Of a stretch of DNA of 45,883 bases, positions 3,497 to 45,655 are shown in pieces. Position 1 is the stretch's first letter, and every line of letters starts with the position of its first letter. The notes below the pieces were generated by a model, which ran no database searches, was not told where the DNA came from, and saw only the letters and a program-made list of their open reading frames with translations. The position numbers and the translations under genes were made by a program. The DNA lies in the NCBI RefSeq assembly GCF_900156265.1, contig NZ_FTNE01000003.1, forward strand, positions 189,553 to 235,435. The letters run 5' to 3'. This DNA is from Acidiphilium rubrum (GTDB lineage Bacteria; Pseudomonadota; Alphaproteobacteria; Acetobacterales; Acetobacteraceae).

Positions 3497-3713
3497 ATAC
3501 TTGGCGTTAGGTCTTGTCAAAAATGAGAGAGTGTGGCTTTATATCAAAGACGAGTAGTTTCAAAAATAAGAAATCGCCATGAACTGCGTTGTGCGTACAA
3601 CACTATTCCTTTGTATGGCGTTTTTTGTTGGCAATAGACGTGTTTGAGCATAGCCAAATGTTAGAAAACCGGTAAGATGACTTGTAGTTCATCTTTTGAT
3701 CGGAATACCCGCA
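3497..3713. other. AT-rich intergenic segment
   Basis: This stretch is clearly AT-richer than its surroundings. It holds a small inverted repeat gttgt-gcgt-acaac near 3583-3596 and poly-T/poly-A runs, but no frame that looks coding. It probably contains the promoter for the small gene that starts at 3714. The composition could also reflect a decayed mobile element; nothing specific supports that. Confidence 0.35.
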
Positions 3714-4001
3714 GTGACAGATGAGGATACCATCGACCAGTTCGCCGACGACGTTGTCAAGGCTGATAAGACCCAGTCGCGGTACAGCCGGCGCCTGTCC
3801 GACAAGATATTGATCGCGTTTCACCACGCCTGCGACCAGGACGATTACGAAATCGCCGAGCAGTTGTTGGTCATTCTCGAGCACATGCTGACGCGCCGCA
3901 GCCCTAACAGCGATGCCAACCGGCGCAAGAGTATCGAGAGCCTGGTGGCCGCGCACGAGCGTCTGTGGCACCTGCGCCATCCGGAACAGAAATACGCCTA
4001 A
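3714..4001 (+). CDS. small conserved-looking hypothetical protein
   Basis: 95 residues from a GTG start at 3714 ([14 protein letters not shown]); a TTG at 3696 would add six residues. GGA about ten bases upstream of the GTG could act as a weak ribosome-binding site. The protein is soluble and predicted helical: an acidic N-terminus, a central stretch [20 protein letters not shown] reminiscent of a helical repeat, then a basic C-terminal half ending [16 protein letters not shown] have the impression of similar small proteins in Acetobacteraceae but cannot name a function. Its stop codon overlaps the stop of the convergent rnhB gene (3998-4001). Confidence 0.65.
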
Positions 4002-4609
4002 CCCTGCGCGGTGACGTCCCGCAGCAGCGGCCCGAAACCGCGACGGTGATGCGCGGTGATCCCAAGTGACATGATTGCCGTGCGGTGCGCTTGCGTGCCG
4101 TAACCCGCGTTACGCGCCCAGCCAAAGCCGGGGTGGCGCTGATCCAGCCGCACCATCAACCGGTCGCGCGCAAGTTTCGCCGCGATCGAGGCCGCGGCGA
4201 TCGAGAGTGAAATCCCATCGCCGCCGATCAACGCCGAACAATTCATCGGCAGCGATGGCGTCATCGTGCCATCGACCAGCACATGGTCCGGCCGCACGGT
4301 CAGGCGTGCCACCGCCCGTCGCATCGCGAGCAGGCTCGCCTGCAAAATATTCAACCGCGCAATCTCGGCAACCGACGCCGCGCCGAGCGCGATGATGGCG
4401 CCCGAGTCGATCAGCGCGGCCAGCGCCATGGCCCGCCGCGCGGCCGATAATCGTTTGGAATCATCGATCAACCGGATGATCATCGCATCAAGATCGAGCG
4501 GCAGAATCGCCGCGGCCGCTAGCACCGGGCCGGCCAGCGGTCCGCGCCCGACCTCGTCCACCCCTGCCACGATCCCGCCGCAGCGCAATTCATGGCTGAA
4601 ATCAGGCAT
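3998..4609 (-). CDS. rnhB: ribonuclease HII
   Basis: 203 residues from the ATG at 4609. RNase HII removes single ribonucleotides and RNA primers from DNA-RNA hybrids in the cytoplasm. The catalytic acids are present: D18-E19 in [15 protein letters not shown]113 in LVDGT, and D131 in [18 protein letters not shown]. The start overlaps the end of the HyfI-like gene by 8 bp, so rnhB is probably co-transcribed with the hydrogenase-like cluster as its last gene. That is an odd housekeeping passenger. An upstream ATG at 4657 exists, but the added residues are Arg/Ala-rich and unlike the family. Confidence 0.95.
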
Positions 4610-5105
4610 GCGGCTCGATGCGCGATGAGCGGCGCGCGGCCGCGACGGGCGCGGCATTTGCCTCGAGCAAAGCGACCAGACCGGCGATGATCCTTCCCGG
4701 CGATGGCGGGCAACCGGCGATCAGCAGATCGACCGGAACGATCCGCTCGGCACCGCCCAGCACGGTCGGCGCACCCTTGAACACGCCGCCATCGACCGCG
4801 CAATCCCCCACCGCGACCACGAAGCGCGGCGGTGCCATTGCACCCAGCGTGCGGGTGACCGCATCGGCCATCGTGGTGGTGACGACGCCGGTGATCAGCA
4901 GCACATCGGCTTCGCGCGGATCATCGACCAGCGTGATGCCGTAGCGGGTCAGCCCGGCCCGCAGCGCCACGGCACCCGCCAGCGAAATTTCGCACCCGCC
5001 GCAACTGCCTGCATCGACATGGCGCACCGCCAGGCTGCGGCCAAGCCTTGTGATGCCGGCATCCGCCAGGCGCGCCGCCAGTGAACTCACCGCCGCTTCA
5101 TCCAT
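4602..5105 (-). CDS. HyfI/NuoB-like iron-sulfur subunit of a hydrogenase-related complex
   Basis: 167 residues. It belongs to the complex I 20-kDa / NiFe-hydrogenase small-subunit family (HycG, HyfI, NuoB), which carries the [4Fe-4S] cluster next to the quinone or active site. All four ligands are visible: C35 and C38 in [13 protein letters not shown]102 in [15 protein letters not shown], and C132 in [15 protein letters not shown]. The segment [11 protein letters not shown] is typical of group 4 (membrane-bound) enzymes. The start at 5105 overlaps the stop of the HyfG-like gene (5098), suggesting translational coupling. The intact cluster site contrasts with the degraded catalytic partner, so this subunit probably still transfers electrons. 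Confidence 0.88.
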
Positions 5106-6420
5106 CGATCGCCCCCACCGACAGGCCATAACACGCGATCAGCACGGCTGCCGCTTGGGGATCGAGCCCGACCACGCCGGCTTCGAGCGCCGGCAGCAGC
5201 CGCGCGGATGGGTCGATCGCGACACAATCGCGGATCTGGCCATCGAGCAGGTCGATCCAGTGATACACCATGCCCCGCGCGCTTTCGGCGGCCCCCAGCG
5301 CCGTGCCGGTGCCGGCGGGCAGAGCCGCGGCGATGATGCCTTCGGGCACCACCGCGAGGTCCGCACGCACCGATGCAGCAAGCGCGCGGATCGAGCGTGC
5401 CCGCGCCTGCGCGATGCCAGCGGCCGGCCCCAGGTCGCGCCGCACCCGCCCCCAGGCGAACGCCCGCACCACCAGGGAAGCGCGGTCCAGCGCGGCAAGC
5501 AGGGACGCAACGGCATCGCCGCGCAGATCGAGCGCGAGCCCGCCGGGCACCACGATATCCATCATGAGCCGATGGCCGAACGCCTCGCCCAGCGCCACGG
5601 CGCTCTGTTCACGCGCCTGACCGAGCAGGGTCGCGAACCGCGCATCACCCGCCGCCGCCACCGCCGCCGCCAGCGCGGCGAGATCGGCGGTCATTCGCTC
5701 GACCGCCACCATGATCGCGCGCAGCGCCACCGCCCGCGGCGGTGCCACGGCACCGCTCGCCGCCTCCGCCGCGCGGGCAAACGCGACCGCATGCGCGACC
5801 GTGGCATCGCCGGCGATGCGAGCGGCGAACCGTGCGGCAACCCGGGGCGATTTGCCGCGCATCAGCCCCGCGATGCCGCGATGGGCGTAGCCGAGCCGGT
5901 GTTCCAGGCGGAGAATCCGCGTGTCGTCCGTGCTGAAACACCCCATGCTGAAGCGCCCCATGCTGAAGCGCCCCATGCTGAAACGCCGGTGCACCGGGCT
6001 TGCGATCCGCCCGGCAACCGGGCCGGCGCCGATCTGATAGAAGCCTTCGCCCGCGGTTTCGATGAAGCGCGGCCAGGCGGCATCGGTGCCGGCGGCCCCT
6101 TGGGCGATCGCCGGGCGGCGGTCGGTGGCACCTTCGGCGGTGGCACCGGTCTGGTCGAACGCCAGCCGTTCGAACCAGGCGGCCTGGGGAAACCCTGTGG
6201 CGATCGAAGGATAGGCGTTGGCGATCAATTCGGTCGCCAGCAGCAGCGGCGCCGATCCATCGGTGAACAGCGCATGCACCCGCCCGCCCGAGACGAATAG
6301 GCCGACAAACCCCAGCCGGGCGTCGCCGGCCGCGAGGCTGCGCCAGGTGGCGGCATCCAGCATCACGGCCGTACCCGGCGGGGCCGCCGACGCGATCGCA
6401 ACGTCGAGTGCGGGGTTCAT
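5098..6420 (-). CDS. HyfG/NuoCD-like subunit lacking NiFe-binding cysteines
   Basis: 440 residues, a fusion of a short NuoC-like N-terminal part (about 1-120) and a NuoD/hydrogenase large-subunit-like part (about 125-440). Family features: GPVAGRI near 133-139 (GPVHAGI in relatives), LRLEHRLGYAHRGI near 170-183, and GKSP..A..FAARIAGDATVAH (189-210). In true NiFe enzymes this last position reads R-[VI]-C-G-I-C; here it is R201-I-A-G-D-A, so the first cysteine pair is gone. The C-terminus likewise lacks a CxxC; it ends [12 protein letters not shown]. The protein therefore cannot hold a NiFe centre in the usual way, as in Ehr complexes. An in-frame 15-bp repeat encodes three FSMG units at 147-160. 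The stop overlaps the FeS-subunit gene. Confidence 0.85.
   Translation of the reverse strand: MNPALDVAIASAAPPGTAVMLDAATWRSLAAGDARLGFVGLFVSGGRVHALFTDGSAPLLLATELIANAYPSIATGFPQAAWFERLAFDQTGATAEGATDRRPAIAQGAAGTDAAWPRFIETAGEGFYQIGAGPVAGRIASPVHRRFSMGRFSMGRFSMGCFSTDDTRILRLEHRLGYAHRGIAGLMRGKSPRVAARFAARIAGDATVAHAVAFARAAEAASGAVAPPRAVALRAIMVAVERMTADLAALAAAVAAAGDARFATLLGQAREQSAVALGEAFGHRLMMDIVVPGGLALDLRGDAVASLLAALDRASLVVRAFAWGRVRRDLGPAAGIAQARARSIRALAASVRADLAVVPEGIIAAALPAGTGTALGAAESARGMVYHWIDLLDGQIRDCVAIDPSARLLPALEAGVVGLDPQAAAVLIACYGLSVGAIDG
5941..5985 (-). repeat. 15-bp in-frame tandem repeat (three units)
   Basis: Three consecutive 15-bp units of ccccatgctgaagcg (the third has aaacg), with a partial fourth at about 5930-5940. 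On the coding (minus) strand they give the repeated pentapeptide RFSMG inside the HyfG-like protein. The repeat sits where relatives read something like FRFSVVGE, between the NuoC-like and NuoD-like parts. Fifteen base pairs keep the frame, so copy-number change would lengthen or shorten a loop without destroying the protein. Confidence 0.9.
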
Positions 6421-7757
6421 GCGGGCAGCGCGATCAGCCAGGGCAGCAGCCCCAGCGCGGCGGCGGCGAGCAACAGCAGCGCGGCGGGCACCGCGCGGCG
6501 CGCCGGCGGCATGGTGAACCGAGCCGGCGGCTGGCGTGCCAGCGCGATCGCCGCGGTCAGCACCACCGCCGCCAGCACCACCCCACCCAGCCCGATATCA
6601 AGGCGGAAAGCGGCGCGCAGCACGGCGACATCCCCGGCGAACGCGCCGAACGGCGGCAGGGCGAGCAGCGCGATCAGGCCGGCGGATGCGAAGGTGCCGC
6701 CGGCGAGGCGCGCGAGCGCGATGGTCACCAGGATCAGCAGCGCCCCGTCGGTCGCGCCCAGACCGAAGCCGAGCGATGCGACGCCGAGTTGCACGCAACC
6801 CGCCGCCTCCAGCACCGCGCCGCGCCGGATCAGCCCGATCAGCCCGGCCAGAACCAGTACGCCGCCGCCGGCGATCAACAACGTGGGCACCGCAACCGCC
6901 TGCACCAGCATCACCACCAGGCAGCCGATCGCCGCGGCGACGCCGAGCCGGATCGCGAAGCGGCGCGGCGCCAGCCAGATCAGGATCAAGCCCAGCACGC
7001 CGGCCTTGATGATCCAGGTGAGCAGCCCGACCGGCCAGGTGGCGGCGAGACCGGCATCGGCCATCGGCACGGGCGCGATCATATCGAGCACGATGGCCAG
7101 CAGCACGATGCGGCGCAGCATCGCCTCGATCCGAAACAGCGCGCGTTCCGGCCCGGCGTAATCGGCCGGATCGTCGAGCTCGTAGCAGCCGAGCGTGAGC
7201 GCCAGCGCGATGCCGGCGAGCAGCACCAGCGCCGTGTTCGCGGGTGTCGCCGCGAGCAGGCCGCCGATCGCATCCAGCCGGTCGCTGCCCGCCCGCACCG
7301 CCAGCGCGCCGAGCACGACCAGCCAGACCACGAGGCCGATTGCCAGCCGCAGCGCCGCCCCCGCCGCCCGCGCGCCGCGCCCACCCTCCCCCGATTCGAG
7401 CCATGCGGCCAGGCGCGCGCCCAGCGCCAGGGCGAGTAGTCCGGCCAGCAGCGGCACGGTCGCGAGCGGTGCGGTGATCAGGCCGAAGGCAAAGCCGGGC
7501 ACCACCAGCAAGGCGGCACCGCTCGCGGTCACCGCGATGACCGGCCACGCGGGATAGAGCGGCGAGGCGAACCCCGGCCGCAGGCGGCGTTTGCGGCTGA
7601 GTTTGACCAGATCATCCCAGGCCTGCCGCCACCGGGGCGGTGCCACACCATCGTGCACCGCCCGCAGGACCGGCGCGAGCAGCGCCAGCGCGGCCGCCAT
7701 GCCGAGCAGCGCGGCAATATCGATCAGCGTCGCAATCAGGCGGCTCAGCAGCATCAT
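6417..7757 (-). CDS. HyfC/NuoH-like membrane subunit with an antiporter-like tail
   Basis: 446 residues, very hydrophobic with many membrane segments; HyfC/HycD proteins are usually about 310. The first about 290 residues follow the NuoH/HyfC pattern: a cytoplasmic loop WRQAWDDLVKLSRKRR after the first helix, and an acidic stretch CYELDDPADYAGPERALF. The latter stands where relatives have the E..PFDL.EAE..L quinone-pocket loop, heavily altered here. The remaining about 155 residues look like the end of a NuoM/N or HyfF antiporter subunit, with LIALLALPPFGAFAGDVAVL. So this is probably a fusion or condensed subunit. It overlaps both neighbours by 4 bp (ATGA-type). Assignment to the complex is firm from context; the tail assignment is tentative. 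Confidence 0.75.
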   Translation of the reverse strand: MMLLSRLIATLIDIAALLGMAAALALLAPVLRAVHDGVAPPRWRQAWDDLVKLSRKRRLRPGFASPLYPAWPVIAVTASGAALLVVPGFAFGLITAPLATVPLLAGLLALALGARLAAWLESGEGGRGARAAGAALRLAIGLVVWLVVLGALAVRAGSDRLDAIGGLLAATPANTALVLLAGIALALTLGCYELDDPADYAGPERALFRIEAMLRRIVLLAIVLDMIAPVPMADAGLAATWPVGLLTWIIKAGVLGLILIWLAPRRFAIRLGVAAAIGCLVVMLVQAVAVPTLLIAGGGVLVLAGLIGLIRRGAVLEAAGCVQLGVASLGFGLGATDGALLILVTIALARLAGGTFASAGLIALLALPPFGAFAGDVAVLRAAFRLDIGLGGVVLAAVVLTAAIALARQPPARFTMPPARRAVPAALLLLAAAALGLLPWLIALPA

Positions 7758-9058
7758 GGCCGGAACGGCACGGCGAGCCAGCGGCCGGCGCGGCAGGCCC
7801 AGCGCCAGGCGGGTTGCGCGCGGGGCGGCAGGCGCAGCGCGCCGGCAAACCCGGTCGCGGTGATCTGAGTCGTCGGATCGCCGAACGGCAGCCAGGCCGG
7901 CGAGCGGGCGAAACCATCGTCATACGCCGGCACGTCGACCGGGCCGGCCCGCAGCAGGAACCACCGCGCGCCGAGCGCCAGCGCGGCCATGGCGAGGCCA
8001 AGCCCGAGCCGCGCCGGATCGGCCAGCGCAAAGATCGCGCCACCGAGCAGCAATGCTGCGAGTGCGACCAATACCGGCCGCGCCGCATCCTCGGCCGCCG
8101 CGGCGCGCAGGCTGCGCGGCCGGCCGAGTGCGATGGCCGCGAACGCGCGCAGCACGGCAAATCCCATCAAGGCGAACCACAGCGCCAGCACCACGATCGC
8201 GGTCCAGGCACCGGCACCGATCGCGGCACGCCACGCCGCGCTGAACGCGACAAACCCCGGTCCGGGCGGCAACATGGCGGCGAAGGCGAGGCCGCCGCCC
8301 ATCAGCAAGGCAAAGCGCGGCATGCCGCGCGCGATGCCGCCCAGCCAGTCGAGCGCGCTGGTGCCGGTTGCCTCGGTCAGCGTCGCGGCGGCGATGCCGA
8401 GCACCGGGGCGATCAGCGCGTTCGCGATCATCGCCGCCACCGCCGCCGGCGCGGCGCCGAGGCCGAGCGACAGCAGCGCCAGCCCGGCGAACCCCAGGGC
8501 CGTGGCGCGGGCGAGGCCGGCCAGCGTGTTTGCGCGCGCCGCCCATAGCCCGCCGCCGAGTAGCGCCGCCCCGCCCGCCAAGGCGAAGACCGGATCGAGC
8601 GCCGGCGCATCGAGCGCCACCGTGACCAGGACCGACGGCACCGCGGCCAGCGCGAAAGCGCCACCCTGGCGGCCCCACAGCGCGAGCAGCAGCGCGATGC
8701 CCCCCCAGAAGACCGCGCCCAACGCTGAACCGTACGGGCCGAGCGCCAGCACCGCCAGCACGCTCGCGACGATCAGCGCGTATAAACCTGGCTTGGGTCG
8801 CCCCGCCGCCGTGATGGTGGCGGCGGCGGCGAGCAGCAGCGGCGCGAGCAGTGCGGCCCGCAGCGGATCGACCGCGAAATCTGCCACATCGAACCCGGCG
8901 CCGCCGAACCAGGGCAGCGCCGCCTGCATCGGCGCAAGGCCGAACAGCGCGACCGCCGCCATGCCGAGCGCGCCGGCGAACGCCAGACCGGCAACGCCGC
9001 CGGCCACGGCGGCCGGCATCGCAGCCATGACGCGTGATTGCTCAGAGGGTCGGGCCAT
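7754..9058 (-). CDS. HyfB/NuoL-like antiporter-type membrane subunit, degenerate
   Basis: 434 residues, almost entirely membrane helices. The C-terminal YDDGFARSPAWLPFGDPTTQ matches the YxCGy-type tail of HyfB-like proteins, and LDWLGGIARGMPRFAL (236-251) matches the loop after the central helix of Mrp/NuoL-type antiporters. The pumping residues are not retained. Relatives have a motif like HALFKALLF on the helix before that loop, but here residues 212-220 read ANALIAPVL. The whole protein has no histidine and only one lysine (K89, in a loop). HyfB usually exceeds 600 residues, so it is also short. The start at 9058 is the first ATG; ATGs at residues 11 and 14 are possible. Confidence 0.75.
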   Translation of the reverse strand: MARPSEQSRVMAAMPAAVAGGVAGLAFAGALGMAAVALFGLAPMQAALPWFGGAGFDVADFAVDPLRAALLAPLLLAAAATITAAGRPKPGLYALIVASVLAVLALGPYGSALGAVFWGGIALLLALWGRQGGAFALAAVPSVLVTVALDAPALDPVFALAGGAALLGGGLWAARANTLAGLARATALGFAGLALLSLGLGAAPAAVAAMIANALIAPVLGIAAATLTEATGTSALDWLGGIARGMPRFALLMGGGLAFAAMLPPGPGFVAFSAAWRAAIGAGAWTAIVVLALWFALMGFAVLRAFAAIALGRPRSLRAAAAEDAARPVLVALAALLLGGAIFALADPARLGLGLAMAALALGARWFLLRAGPVDVPAYDDGFARSPAWLPFGDPTTQITATGFAGALRLPPRAQPAWRWACRAGRWLAVPFRP

Positions 9059-9100: not shown

Positions 9101-9955
9101 TCACGCCGATGCGCGCTTCTGCACCCGCCGCGCGATCACCAAACCGACCAGGATCGCCAGATCGATCGCCACGAATGCCGCAGCACTGATCCGCAGCGTG
9201 CTGAAATTGGCATCGAGCACCAGCCACGGGTTGATCCCCGAGTTGAGCTTGTACCAGAGCGCCTCGCCCAGCGCCGTGATCATCACGCTCGCGACCGCCA
9301 GGATCACGATGCCTGGGAGCGAGCGGCGGAACCCTGGCGCACTCGCGCGCCATAGCATCAGCCACACGAACAGCCCGGCCGGCACCATCGCCACCCCGAC
9401 CTCGACCTTCTGGGTCAGGAAAAAATGCCACAGCGACAGGATCGCGACCGGATAGATCAGCCGGTGCAGCGCCTTCCATTTTTTGCCCAGCCGCGCCATC
9501 GCCGCATCGGTCGAGGTGACCGAGAGCGCGATGAACCCGACCGTCGCGATCGTGCCGAGAATGAGGTAGAATACCGTCAGCATCTGGCTGACCACGAAGC
9601 CGAGCGCGAACCCCTCGTCCCACGCGTAGAGCACGATATGCGCGATCGTGTAGAACGCCGCCGCGAGCCCGAGCATGCGCCGCAGCATCACCACGCGCGG
9701 CCAGTCGAACAGCGCGCGCGCCGGCGTGACCGCGAGGGACAGGATCAAGAAGCGGATCGCCCAGAACCCGGTTTCCAGCATGGCGTGATGCACCGGCCGG
9801 CTGCCCAGGTCATCGGTGCGCCACTGCCAGAGAATGAACGGCGTCGGCGCGATGCAGAGCAGCAGCGTGATCAGCTTCAGCCAGGAAAACCGCCCGGCCG
9901 GCGTGCGCCAGGGGACTGCGAAGACAGAGGGGCAGCGCTTGGTTGTGGTGCTCAT
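9101..9955 (-). CDS. msrQ: MsrQ/YedZ-like haem-binding membrane protein
   Basis: 284 residues with about six to eight membrane segments of the ferric-reductase-like transmembrane family. MsrQ passes electrons from the quinol pool (or a flavin reductase) to the periplasmic methionine sulfoxide reductase MsrP. The family core is clear: SLAVTPARALFDWPRVVMLRRMLGL, then candidate haem ligands H106 (TIAHIVLY), H164 (KALHRLIY) and H177 (SLWHFFL). No msrP lies next to it. The next gene (HyfB-like) starts 42 bp downstream on the same strand, so msrQ may be the first gene of that operon. The extra C-terminal region (about 220-284) adds two membrane segments. Confidence 0.88.
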   Translation of the reverse strand: MSTTTKRCPSVFAVPWRTPAGRFSWLKLITLLLCIAPTPFILWQWRTDDLGSRPVHHAMLETGFWAIRFLILSLAVTPARALFDWPRVVMLRRMLGLAAAFYTIAHIVLYAWDEGFALGFVVSQMLTVFYLILGTIATVGFIALSVTSTDAAMARLGKKWKALHRLIYPVAILSLWHFFLTQKVEVGVAMVPAGLFVWLMLWRASAPGFRRSLPGIVILAVASVMITALGEALWYKLNSGINPWLVLDANFSTLRISAAAFVAIDLAILVGLVIARRVQKRASA

Positions 9956-45541: not shown

Positions 45542-45655
45542 TTCCGGTGGATCGCGATCACTGATTCCGTTTGATCGCGATCACGCAATCCGGTGGATCG
45601 CGATCATGGATTCCGTTTGATTGCGATCATCGATTCCGGTGATCGCGATCATTGG
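45542..45655. repeat. 23-bp tandem repeats at the IS21 left end
   Basis: Five consecutive units of about 23 bp, each containing the palindrome gatcgcgatc (one unit has gattgcgatc). Units alternate between ttccggtggatcgcgatca and ttccgtttgatcgcgatca types, giving a 46-bp higher-order period: units start at 45542, 45565, 45588, 45611 and 45634 (the last is one base shorter). Multiple terminal repeats of this kind are known transposase-binding sites at IS21-family ends. Confidence 0.9.

Follow-up and report, generated by a model that had tools for sequence, protein, structure and literature searches.

Energy-converting-hydrogenase-related (Ehr) complexes occur in many lineages (PMC10284858, PMC12342949), and the accessible text of the papers on them describes complexes that lack NiFe ligands and whose function is unknown (PMC6349859, PMC10284858, PMC12342949). 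Here we describe a four-gene relative of the six-gene hyfBCEFGI-type sets, found in a 45,883-nucleotide stretch of Acidiphilium rubrum DNA (contig NZ_FTNE01000003.1, positions 189,553 to 235,435; hereafter the window), which is part of contig C35 in a 3.98-Mb genome. The four genes almost certainly represent a reduced Ehr-type complex, a conclusion carried by homology, losses, conservation and selection together. With the six-gene Ehr of Acidocella (L100) and with a full copy elsewhere in the same genome (L035, on contig C56), the window set shares HyfG, HyfI, HyfB, HyfC and HyfF homology, the absence of NiFe ligands and the four HyfI cysteines. In comparison with these sets, however, its HyfC and HyfF are fused and cut down, and the HyfB core, HyfE and a central HyfG segment are missing.

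The solved systems nearest to the window set retain more of the ancestral chemistry. Escherichia coli formate hydrogenlyase (FHL-1; 7z0s), which has a minimal membrane arm, is the best solved match for both the HyfG-like protein (HycE) and the HyfC-like part (HycD), but unlike the window set it has a NiFe site, its E-channel loop is intact and its antiporter-like HycC is complete. The Pyrococcus furiosus membrane-bound sulfane reductase (MBS; 6u8y) and membrane-bound hydrogenase (MBH; 6cfw) likewise have a HyfC-like anchor that bears the peripheral arm; MBS too has lost NiFe catalysis, whereas MBH keeps NiFe. Complex I (Nqo4/Nqo6, NuoCD/NuoB) shares the fold of the peripheral arm, but no N-module genes accompany the window set.

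The set consists of four minus-strand open reading frames (434, 446, 440 and 175 amino acids) at 9058-4602, with successive genes overlapping: a shortened HyfB-like gene (7754..9058), a HyfC-HyfF fusion (6417..7757), a HyfG-like (NuoC/NuoD-like) gene (5098..6420) and a HyfI/NuoB-like gene (4602..5129). The last of these encodes a protein that matches PF01058 at 2.6e-27, and a profile search places MbhJ and FHL HycG closest to it among solved structures. Its cysteines C43, C46, C110 and C140 (175-residue frame, codons checked) are those that the initial annotation had counted from Met9 as C35, C38, C102 and C132. They make up the CxxC...C...C ligand set predicted for a proximal [4Fe-4S] cluster, with the CxxC spacing of hydrogenases, unlike the adjacent cysteine pair of complex I. 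The HyfG, HyfI and HyfC-part profiles (A3, A4 and A5) mix reduced and full-Ehr rows (12+5, 13+4 and 9+6, respectively). All four HyfI cysteines are conserved without exception in the 17 aligned rows, and a wider set reads CCCC in 72 of 78, the six departures (L017, L029, L082, L101, L116 and L131) pooling contig edges with true changes. The protein would adopt a NuoB-like fold.

Could this cluster be the catalyst itself? By analogy with MBS, which lost its NiFe chemistry and, in the accessible text of its description, reduces polysulfide at the proximal cluster (PMC7684303), such a role is conceivable, but we regard it as very unlikely. The same text gives the MBS cluster three cysteine ligands, with one iron lacking a cysteine (PMC7684303), where the window HyfI has four in CxxC spacing, and MBS retains all Mrp homologues as a full module that the window set lacks.

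The HyfG-like protein matches PF00374 at 1.5e-11 (44 bits), and its profile finds FHL HycE, Mbh and Nqo4 as the best solved relatives. An AlphaFold model (pLDDT 82, pTM 0.85) matches 7z0s_E, the HycE chain, at 1.9e-20, and also E. coli NuoCD. Where FHL HycE reads RVCGIC and Mbh RMCGIC, the aligned window residues 201-210 are RIAGDATVAH (codons 5791..5820, minus strand; the former L1 NiFe motif), and the C-terminus, GLSVGAIDG, has no CxxC, so that none of the four NiFe cysteines of a group 4 [NiFe] hydrogenase is present. The initial annotation had thus read the cluster cysteines, the altered L1 motif and the hydrogenase-related identity correctly from the letters, and it also pointed, correctly, to the Acetobacteraceae.

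The reduced HyfG proteins have also lost a central segment of 30 + 26 columns (56), which bears GxxxRASGxxxDxR and, for the most part, the PYPPY-like end. Other HyfG proteins keep it in some form in the aligned survey, except L031, which is cut by its own contig end, and L045, L046, L047 and L116. A pattern expression for the central motif missed intact copies (L009, L023 and L034), in which the aligned survey shows the segment. The four loci L045, L046, L047 and L116, from family members g57 and g61, are a possible case of parallel Ehr reduction; L112, L102 and L105 are L045, L046 and L047 fetched again.

Two positions of the complex I quinone site likewise have no equivalents in the reduced HyfG. 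In the alignment, Nqo4 Tyr87 falls on the RIAG glycine, and the Asp139 equivalent is missing in 12 of 12 reduced HyfG proteins. Asp stands at the latter position in 27 of 40 distinct "CAN" rows (the 44 rows include four loci fetched twice) and in 0 of 30 acetic-acid-type ("AAB") rows, three of which repeat CAN loci; because no acetic-acid-type row has Asp, this loss is not special. A beta1-beta2 loop His, the putative equivalent of His38, is kept in all 12 reduced proteins.

The membrane subunits are homologous to HyfC and to Mrp antiporter-like types, but the HyfC loop and the antiporter core are deleted. Neither the fusion nor the HyfB-like gene matches a Pfam or NCBIfam model above the curated cut-off. 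Residues 1 to about 285 of the fusion align with HyfC and HycD, FHL HycD being best by sequence and fold; its single-chain model is of moderate quality (pLDDT 77, pTM 0.68). The C-terminal part, a HyfF remnant, matches separate genes that stand elsewhere beside hyfG at the hyfF position (profile A1, positions 273-447 in G031 and 272-447 in G151), and there is one direct HyfF match (E 2e-4). The HyfB and HyfF assignments rest on that match, on A1 and on the antiporter alignment. In G201 the two fusion parts are separate genes of 286 and 341 amino acids, so the genus contains split as well as fused forms; A1 leaves out this unfused pair, and the fusion of G204, a 159-residue piece, was left out of the alignments.

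The loop between transmembrane helices 5 and 6 (TMH5-6) of HyfC (ExxRxPxDNP...HEAMxLEYSG) is deleted, as a 14-column gap, in 9 of 9 fused orthologues, and in the window DYAGP (fusion residues 199-203; codons 7149..7163, minus strand) remains at its place. It is present in 6 of 6 full HyfC proteins, diverged in one. A strict pattern found the loop in just 7 of 13 full loci, so the claim rests on the alignment.

The HyfB-like protein of 434 residues matches the C-terminal half of antiporter-like subunits. In the alignment it has lost a segment with the glutamate of helix 5, the KAGxxPxHxWLP stretch and a K-containing stretch of helix 8. The antiporter pattern KAGxxPxHxWL occurs in 0 of 10 reduced loci vs at least 11 of 13 full loci, the latter a lower bound because the pattern missed HyfF variants reading KAALVPLHGWLP. 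Lysine and histidine are nearly gone, with 1 Lys and 0 His in the window HyfB vs 13 and 10 in that of Acidocella L100. The stretches DWLGGxARGMP, LGRPRSLRAAAAED and GFAxxPxWxPFxDPxTxxxAxGxA are kept; the second (residues 311-324; codons 8087..8128, minus strand) is invariant in 10 of 10 orthologues. No HyfE match turned up in 4602-9058, even with the cut-off relaxed to E 10, nor at the other reduced loci that were searched; a comparison of the full copy's HyfB and HyfF with the window genes did not reach significance (E 0.11 and 0.86). In L097, a six-gene Ehr from a metagenome-assembled genome (MAG), HyfB lacks the KAGxxPxHxWLP stretch, possibly an intermediate stage of erosion.

These deletions bear on whether the set could still be a working Ehr that couples a redox reaction to ion pumping. 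Redox-driven charge translocation is suspected for Ehr complexes in the accessible text of PMC6349859, on the ground of their Mrp antiporter-like subunits, but the window set has lost both the HyfB channel core and the glutamates of the HyfC loop. For H2 production by FHL, HycD glutamates matter, those of the TMH5-6 loop among them, and changing E199, E201 and E203 lowered it in vivo by 99% (earlier work, as cited in the accessible text of PMC9474812); in MBS the corresponding loop is one of three that define the chamber (accessible text of PMC7684303). We therefore consider an energy-converting function extremely unlikely. Given the combined loss of HyfE, the HyfB channel core, the HyfG segment and the TMH5-6 loop of HyfC, it is improbable that the set has a functional quinone cavity or couples energy, and most likely, judging from these sequences, the set would carry out no ion pumping, no NiFe binding and no complex I-like quinone reduction.

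A full six-gene Ehr lies elsewhere in the same genome (C56, L035). Its HyfG reads RISGDSTVAY and ends in SFNPSYSGCDL, and because its NiFe cysteines are gone too, this loss is not peculiar to the window genes. PF00374 matches just one gene in the genome, the window HyfG, and the HypD maturation gene was not found there by a search that was positive in 4 of 14 control genomes; no NiFe hydrogenase is thus expected. The initial annotation had named a second, cysteine-bearing hyfG as a finding that would speak against it, and none was encountered. Its statement that Ehr complexes lack NiFe ligands agrees with the accessible text of PMC6349859, PMC10284858 and PMC12342949, and its count of fewer genes than a hyfBCEFGI set stands, with four genes and no HyfE. 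Its interpretation held for the Ehr relation and the NiFe loss but not for its emphasis: that loss is ordinary for Ehr, and the unusual feature is the extent of further loss. The HyfC-HyfF fusion, the internal deletions in HyfB and HyfG and the full Ehr elsewhere in the genome went beyond what it had described.

Full Ehr clusters were seen in G000, G096, G153 and G196, in G201 (with the hyfB match in two pieces) and partly in G203. Other Ehr-like loci were met in the survey. L082 (G207:C25) is a third type, whose HyfI has an N-terminal ferredoxin-like stretch (by eye) and whose HyfG reads RISGVGSAAH; long HyfI-like frames occur in five other genus genomes besides G207. The HyfG-like protein of L131 (G029) does read RVCGIC, so this family member may have a genuine group 4 hydrogenase. 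At L044 (G187), a full-type cluster, HyfG had no HyfI match next to it.

A HyfI orthologue of the reduced set is present in all 13 Acidiphilium genomes, several of which are incomplete assemblies. The reduced HyfG is complete in 12 of the 13, and the HyfB-like and HyfC-containing genes were both seen in 10; contigs end within the reduced locus in G200, G203 and G204, and the HyfG of G200, a 64-residue piece at a contig end, was left out of the alignments. The fusion profile matched 118 of 200 family genomes, at full length in four, all Acidiphilium, among the matches listed; the others listed cover the HyfC or HyfF part alone, a few running on through a stop. Order-wide, 124 of 299 genomes matched at 1e-20 or better, six at full length and again all Acidiphilium. 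No HyfC-HyfF fusion outside Acidiphilium was thus found among the matches listed for these 200 family and 299 order genomes. In a named sequence collection the HyfB profile gave at least 11 loci, six coinciding with loci already surveyed; L095 and L099 begin like the reduced set and then run out at the contig end, and the full set is carried by L097 and by two Acidocella MAGs, with L101 cut within hyfI. Of 39 plasmid-borne records with relatives, none covered 80% of the query. No description of the reduced set was found in literature titles and abstract openings, a search outside which most subscription papers lay.

In a tree of HyfG and HyfI (IQ-TREE, LG+F+R4; 77 of the 78 HyfI rows had HyfG, and dropping six double-fetched loci left 71 taxa), the 12 reduced loci are set apart from all others with an ultrafast bootstrap (UFBoot) of 100. 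They share common descent with the Ehr large and small subunits, stand apart from the full Ehr copy of the same genomes, and group with the Acidocella-type loci L042, L049, L097, L100 and L101 at UFBoot 85. From this grouping, the reduced set is best read as a derived Acidocella-type Ehr and not as a recent copy of the C56 cluster.

This placement also bears on whether the set is an accessory or regulatory paralogue, whose HyfG- and HyfI-like subunits would assemble, dock on or tune the full Ehr. A second, full-Ehr-like HyfI accompanies the reduced one in 13 of 13 Acidiphilium genomes, and some of the kept stretches could be docking surfaces; such universal co-occurrence, however, cannot discriminate. 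In the tree the reduced set falls with the Acidocella-type lineage and not with the full copy of its own genomes, and wherever both positions are listed, the two loci sit either on separate contigs or at distances of tens to thousands of kilobases. We consider an accessory role unlikely.

Selection on the genes was assessed by pairwise Nei-Gojobori dN/dS (w), with dS up to 1.13. Every comparison gave a ratio below 1, in reduced and full sets alike. In the close pair G000-G206, w was 0.10 for HyfI, 0.16 for HyfG, 0.19 for HyfB and 0.28 for the fusion, beside 0.20 for the adjoining ribonuclease HII gene, rnhB (3998..4657, minus strand), which overlaps the hyfI-like gene. Between G000 and G096, HyfI is the best conserved protein of the reduced set (78% identity, w 0.25; fusion 50%, 0.53; HyfB 48%, 0.47). 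The full Ehr of the same pair is best conserved in HyfE and HyfF (90%, w 0.10) and least in HyfI (71%, 0.31), with HyfB, HyfC and HyfG between (79-81%; HyfC 80%, w 0.17). Constraint has therefore shifted, from HyfE/HyfF in the full Ehr to HyfI in the reduced set, a shift that stands out in the comparisons with G096 and G153. In the comparison with G196, HyfI once more leads the four reduced proteins in conservation (64%, w 0.35).

The same ratios, together with the reading frames, exclude that these are pseudogenes under no purifying selection, an outcome that the initial annotation had set against its own proposal. Frames are open in all complete genes read across the genus loci; some HyfI matches in genus genomes cross a stop, whereas the open reading frames read at the loci do not. 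A subtler version would make the set a decaying relic, a former Ehr that is eroding by drift and is kept partly through transcriptional or translational coupling to rnhB. The fusion and HyfB do evolve fast (w 0.47-0.75, and 0.19-0.59 in another comparison that includes one fragment), the HyfG gene has expanded by a 15-bp tandem repeat of 3.8 copies (5931..5987, minus strand; RFSMGRFSMGRFSMGC insertion), and rnhB overlaps the set in the window. The complete genes, however, have open frames, the HyfI and HyfG ratios (w 0.10-0.26) resemble those of rnhB (0.12-0.23), and invariant HyfB and HyfI motifs persist across the genus, so that we judge a relic improbable.

Beside the set, rnhB is the next gene after the HyfI-like gene in 13 of 13 genus genomes; it is possibly co-translated with it but stands outside the complex. 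P101, a plus-strand gene of 101 amino acids (3696-4001) with no Pfam match, has a match near the reduced locus in 13 of 13 genus genomes, with another gene between in G153, and its relatives near rnhB in the 12 other genomes show 62-99% local identity. Upstream, 42 bases before the HyfB-like gene, lies a gene for an MsrQ/YedZ-like heme-b membrane protein (9101..9955, minus strand). Because it is adjacent at just 7 of the 10 loci whose contigs extend upstream past the HyfB-like gene, it was left out of the core set, and it was rejected as a fixed redox partner; in G202, G207 and G201 other genes take its position (catalase-peroxidase-like and Aat-like, named by eye from translations). A 23/46-bp tandem repeat array lies at 45542-45652 of the window, close to the contig end.

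We propose that the reduced complex would be specific to Acidiphilium and would descend vertically from an Ehr with the six hyfBCEFGI genes, of a kind still found in Acidocella. HyfG and HyfI would keep the fold of a NuoD/NuoB-like peripheral arm, and the membrane part would now consist of the shortened HyfB and the HyfC-HyfF fusion, the four proteins presumably assembling into one complex. HyfB and the fusion would both have lost residues that relatives use for proton transfer, and the fusion a loop that would help to shape the quinone chamber, while the kept stretches may, by homology, dock the peripheral arm at the membrane. Because the cluster subunit persists while most of the tested elements of hydrogen, quinone and proton chemistry are gone, a non-pumping relay or sensor is favoured. 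An electron-transfer module, as initially suggested, is possible; judged from its sequence, the set is probably a membrane-anchored device with one [4Fe-4S] cluster, acting as an electron relay or a redox sensor. For the reduced Ehr identity and this membrane-anchored, single-cluster role without pumping, taken together, our confidence leans slightly to the positive side.

Several observations weigh against this proposal. The loading of the proximal [4Fe-4S] cluster in HyfI is predicted from the cysteines alone. No electron donor or acceptor was seen at the loci, the MsrQ-like neighbour being absent at 3 of 10. Selection on the fusion is weak, with the top w value (0.75) in the G000-G196 pair (HyfG 0.44, HyfI 0.35), and it may for this reason be losing its function; against G196 the full-set pattern is also blurred, with the highest w in HyfB (0.38) and the lowest identity in HyfG (64%). 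Constant closeness to rnhB could help to keep the operon. The reduced set is not alone in what its HyfG has lost at Asp139 and in the beta1-beta2 loop, and comparable membrane-gene reductions may exist in acetic-acid-type Ehr loci or elsewhere. The support of 85 for the Acidocella link is moderate.

The reduced set is a natural Ehr without the parts of the pump and the chamber but with a conserved cluster subunit, and as such it separates the roles of these parts. Its activity should not depend on NiFe, on the HyfC E-channel loop or on the antiporter core, and the full Ehr in the same cells provides an internal comparison. More broadly, the Acidiphilium locus offers a test case for the stepwise shedding of complex I-like modules.

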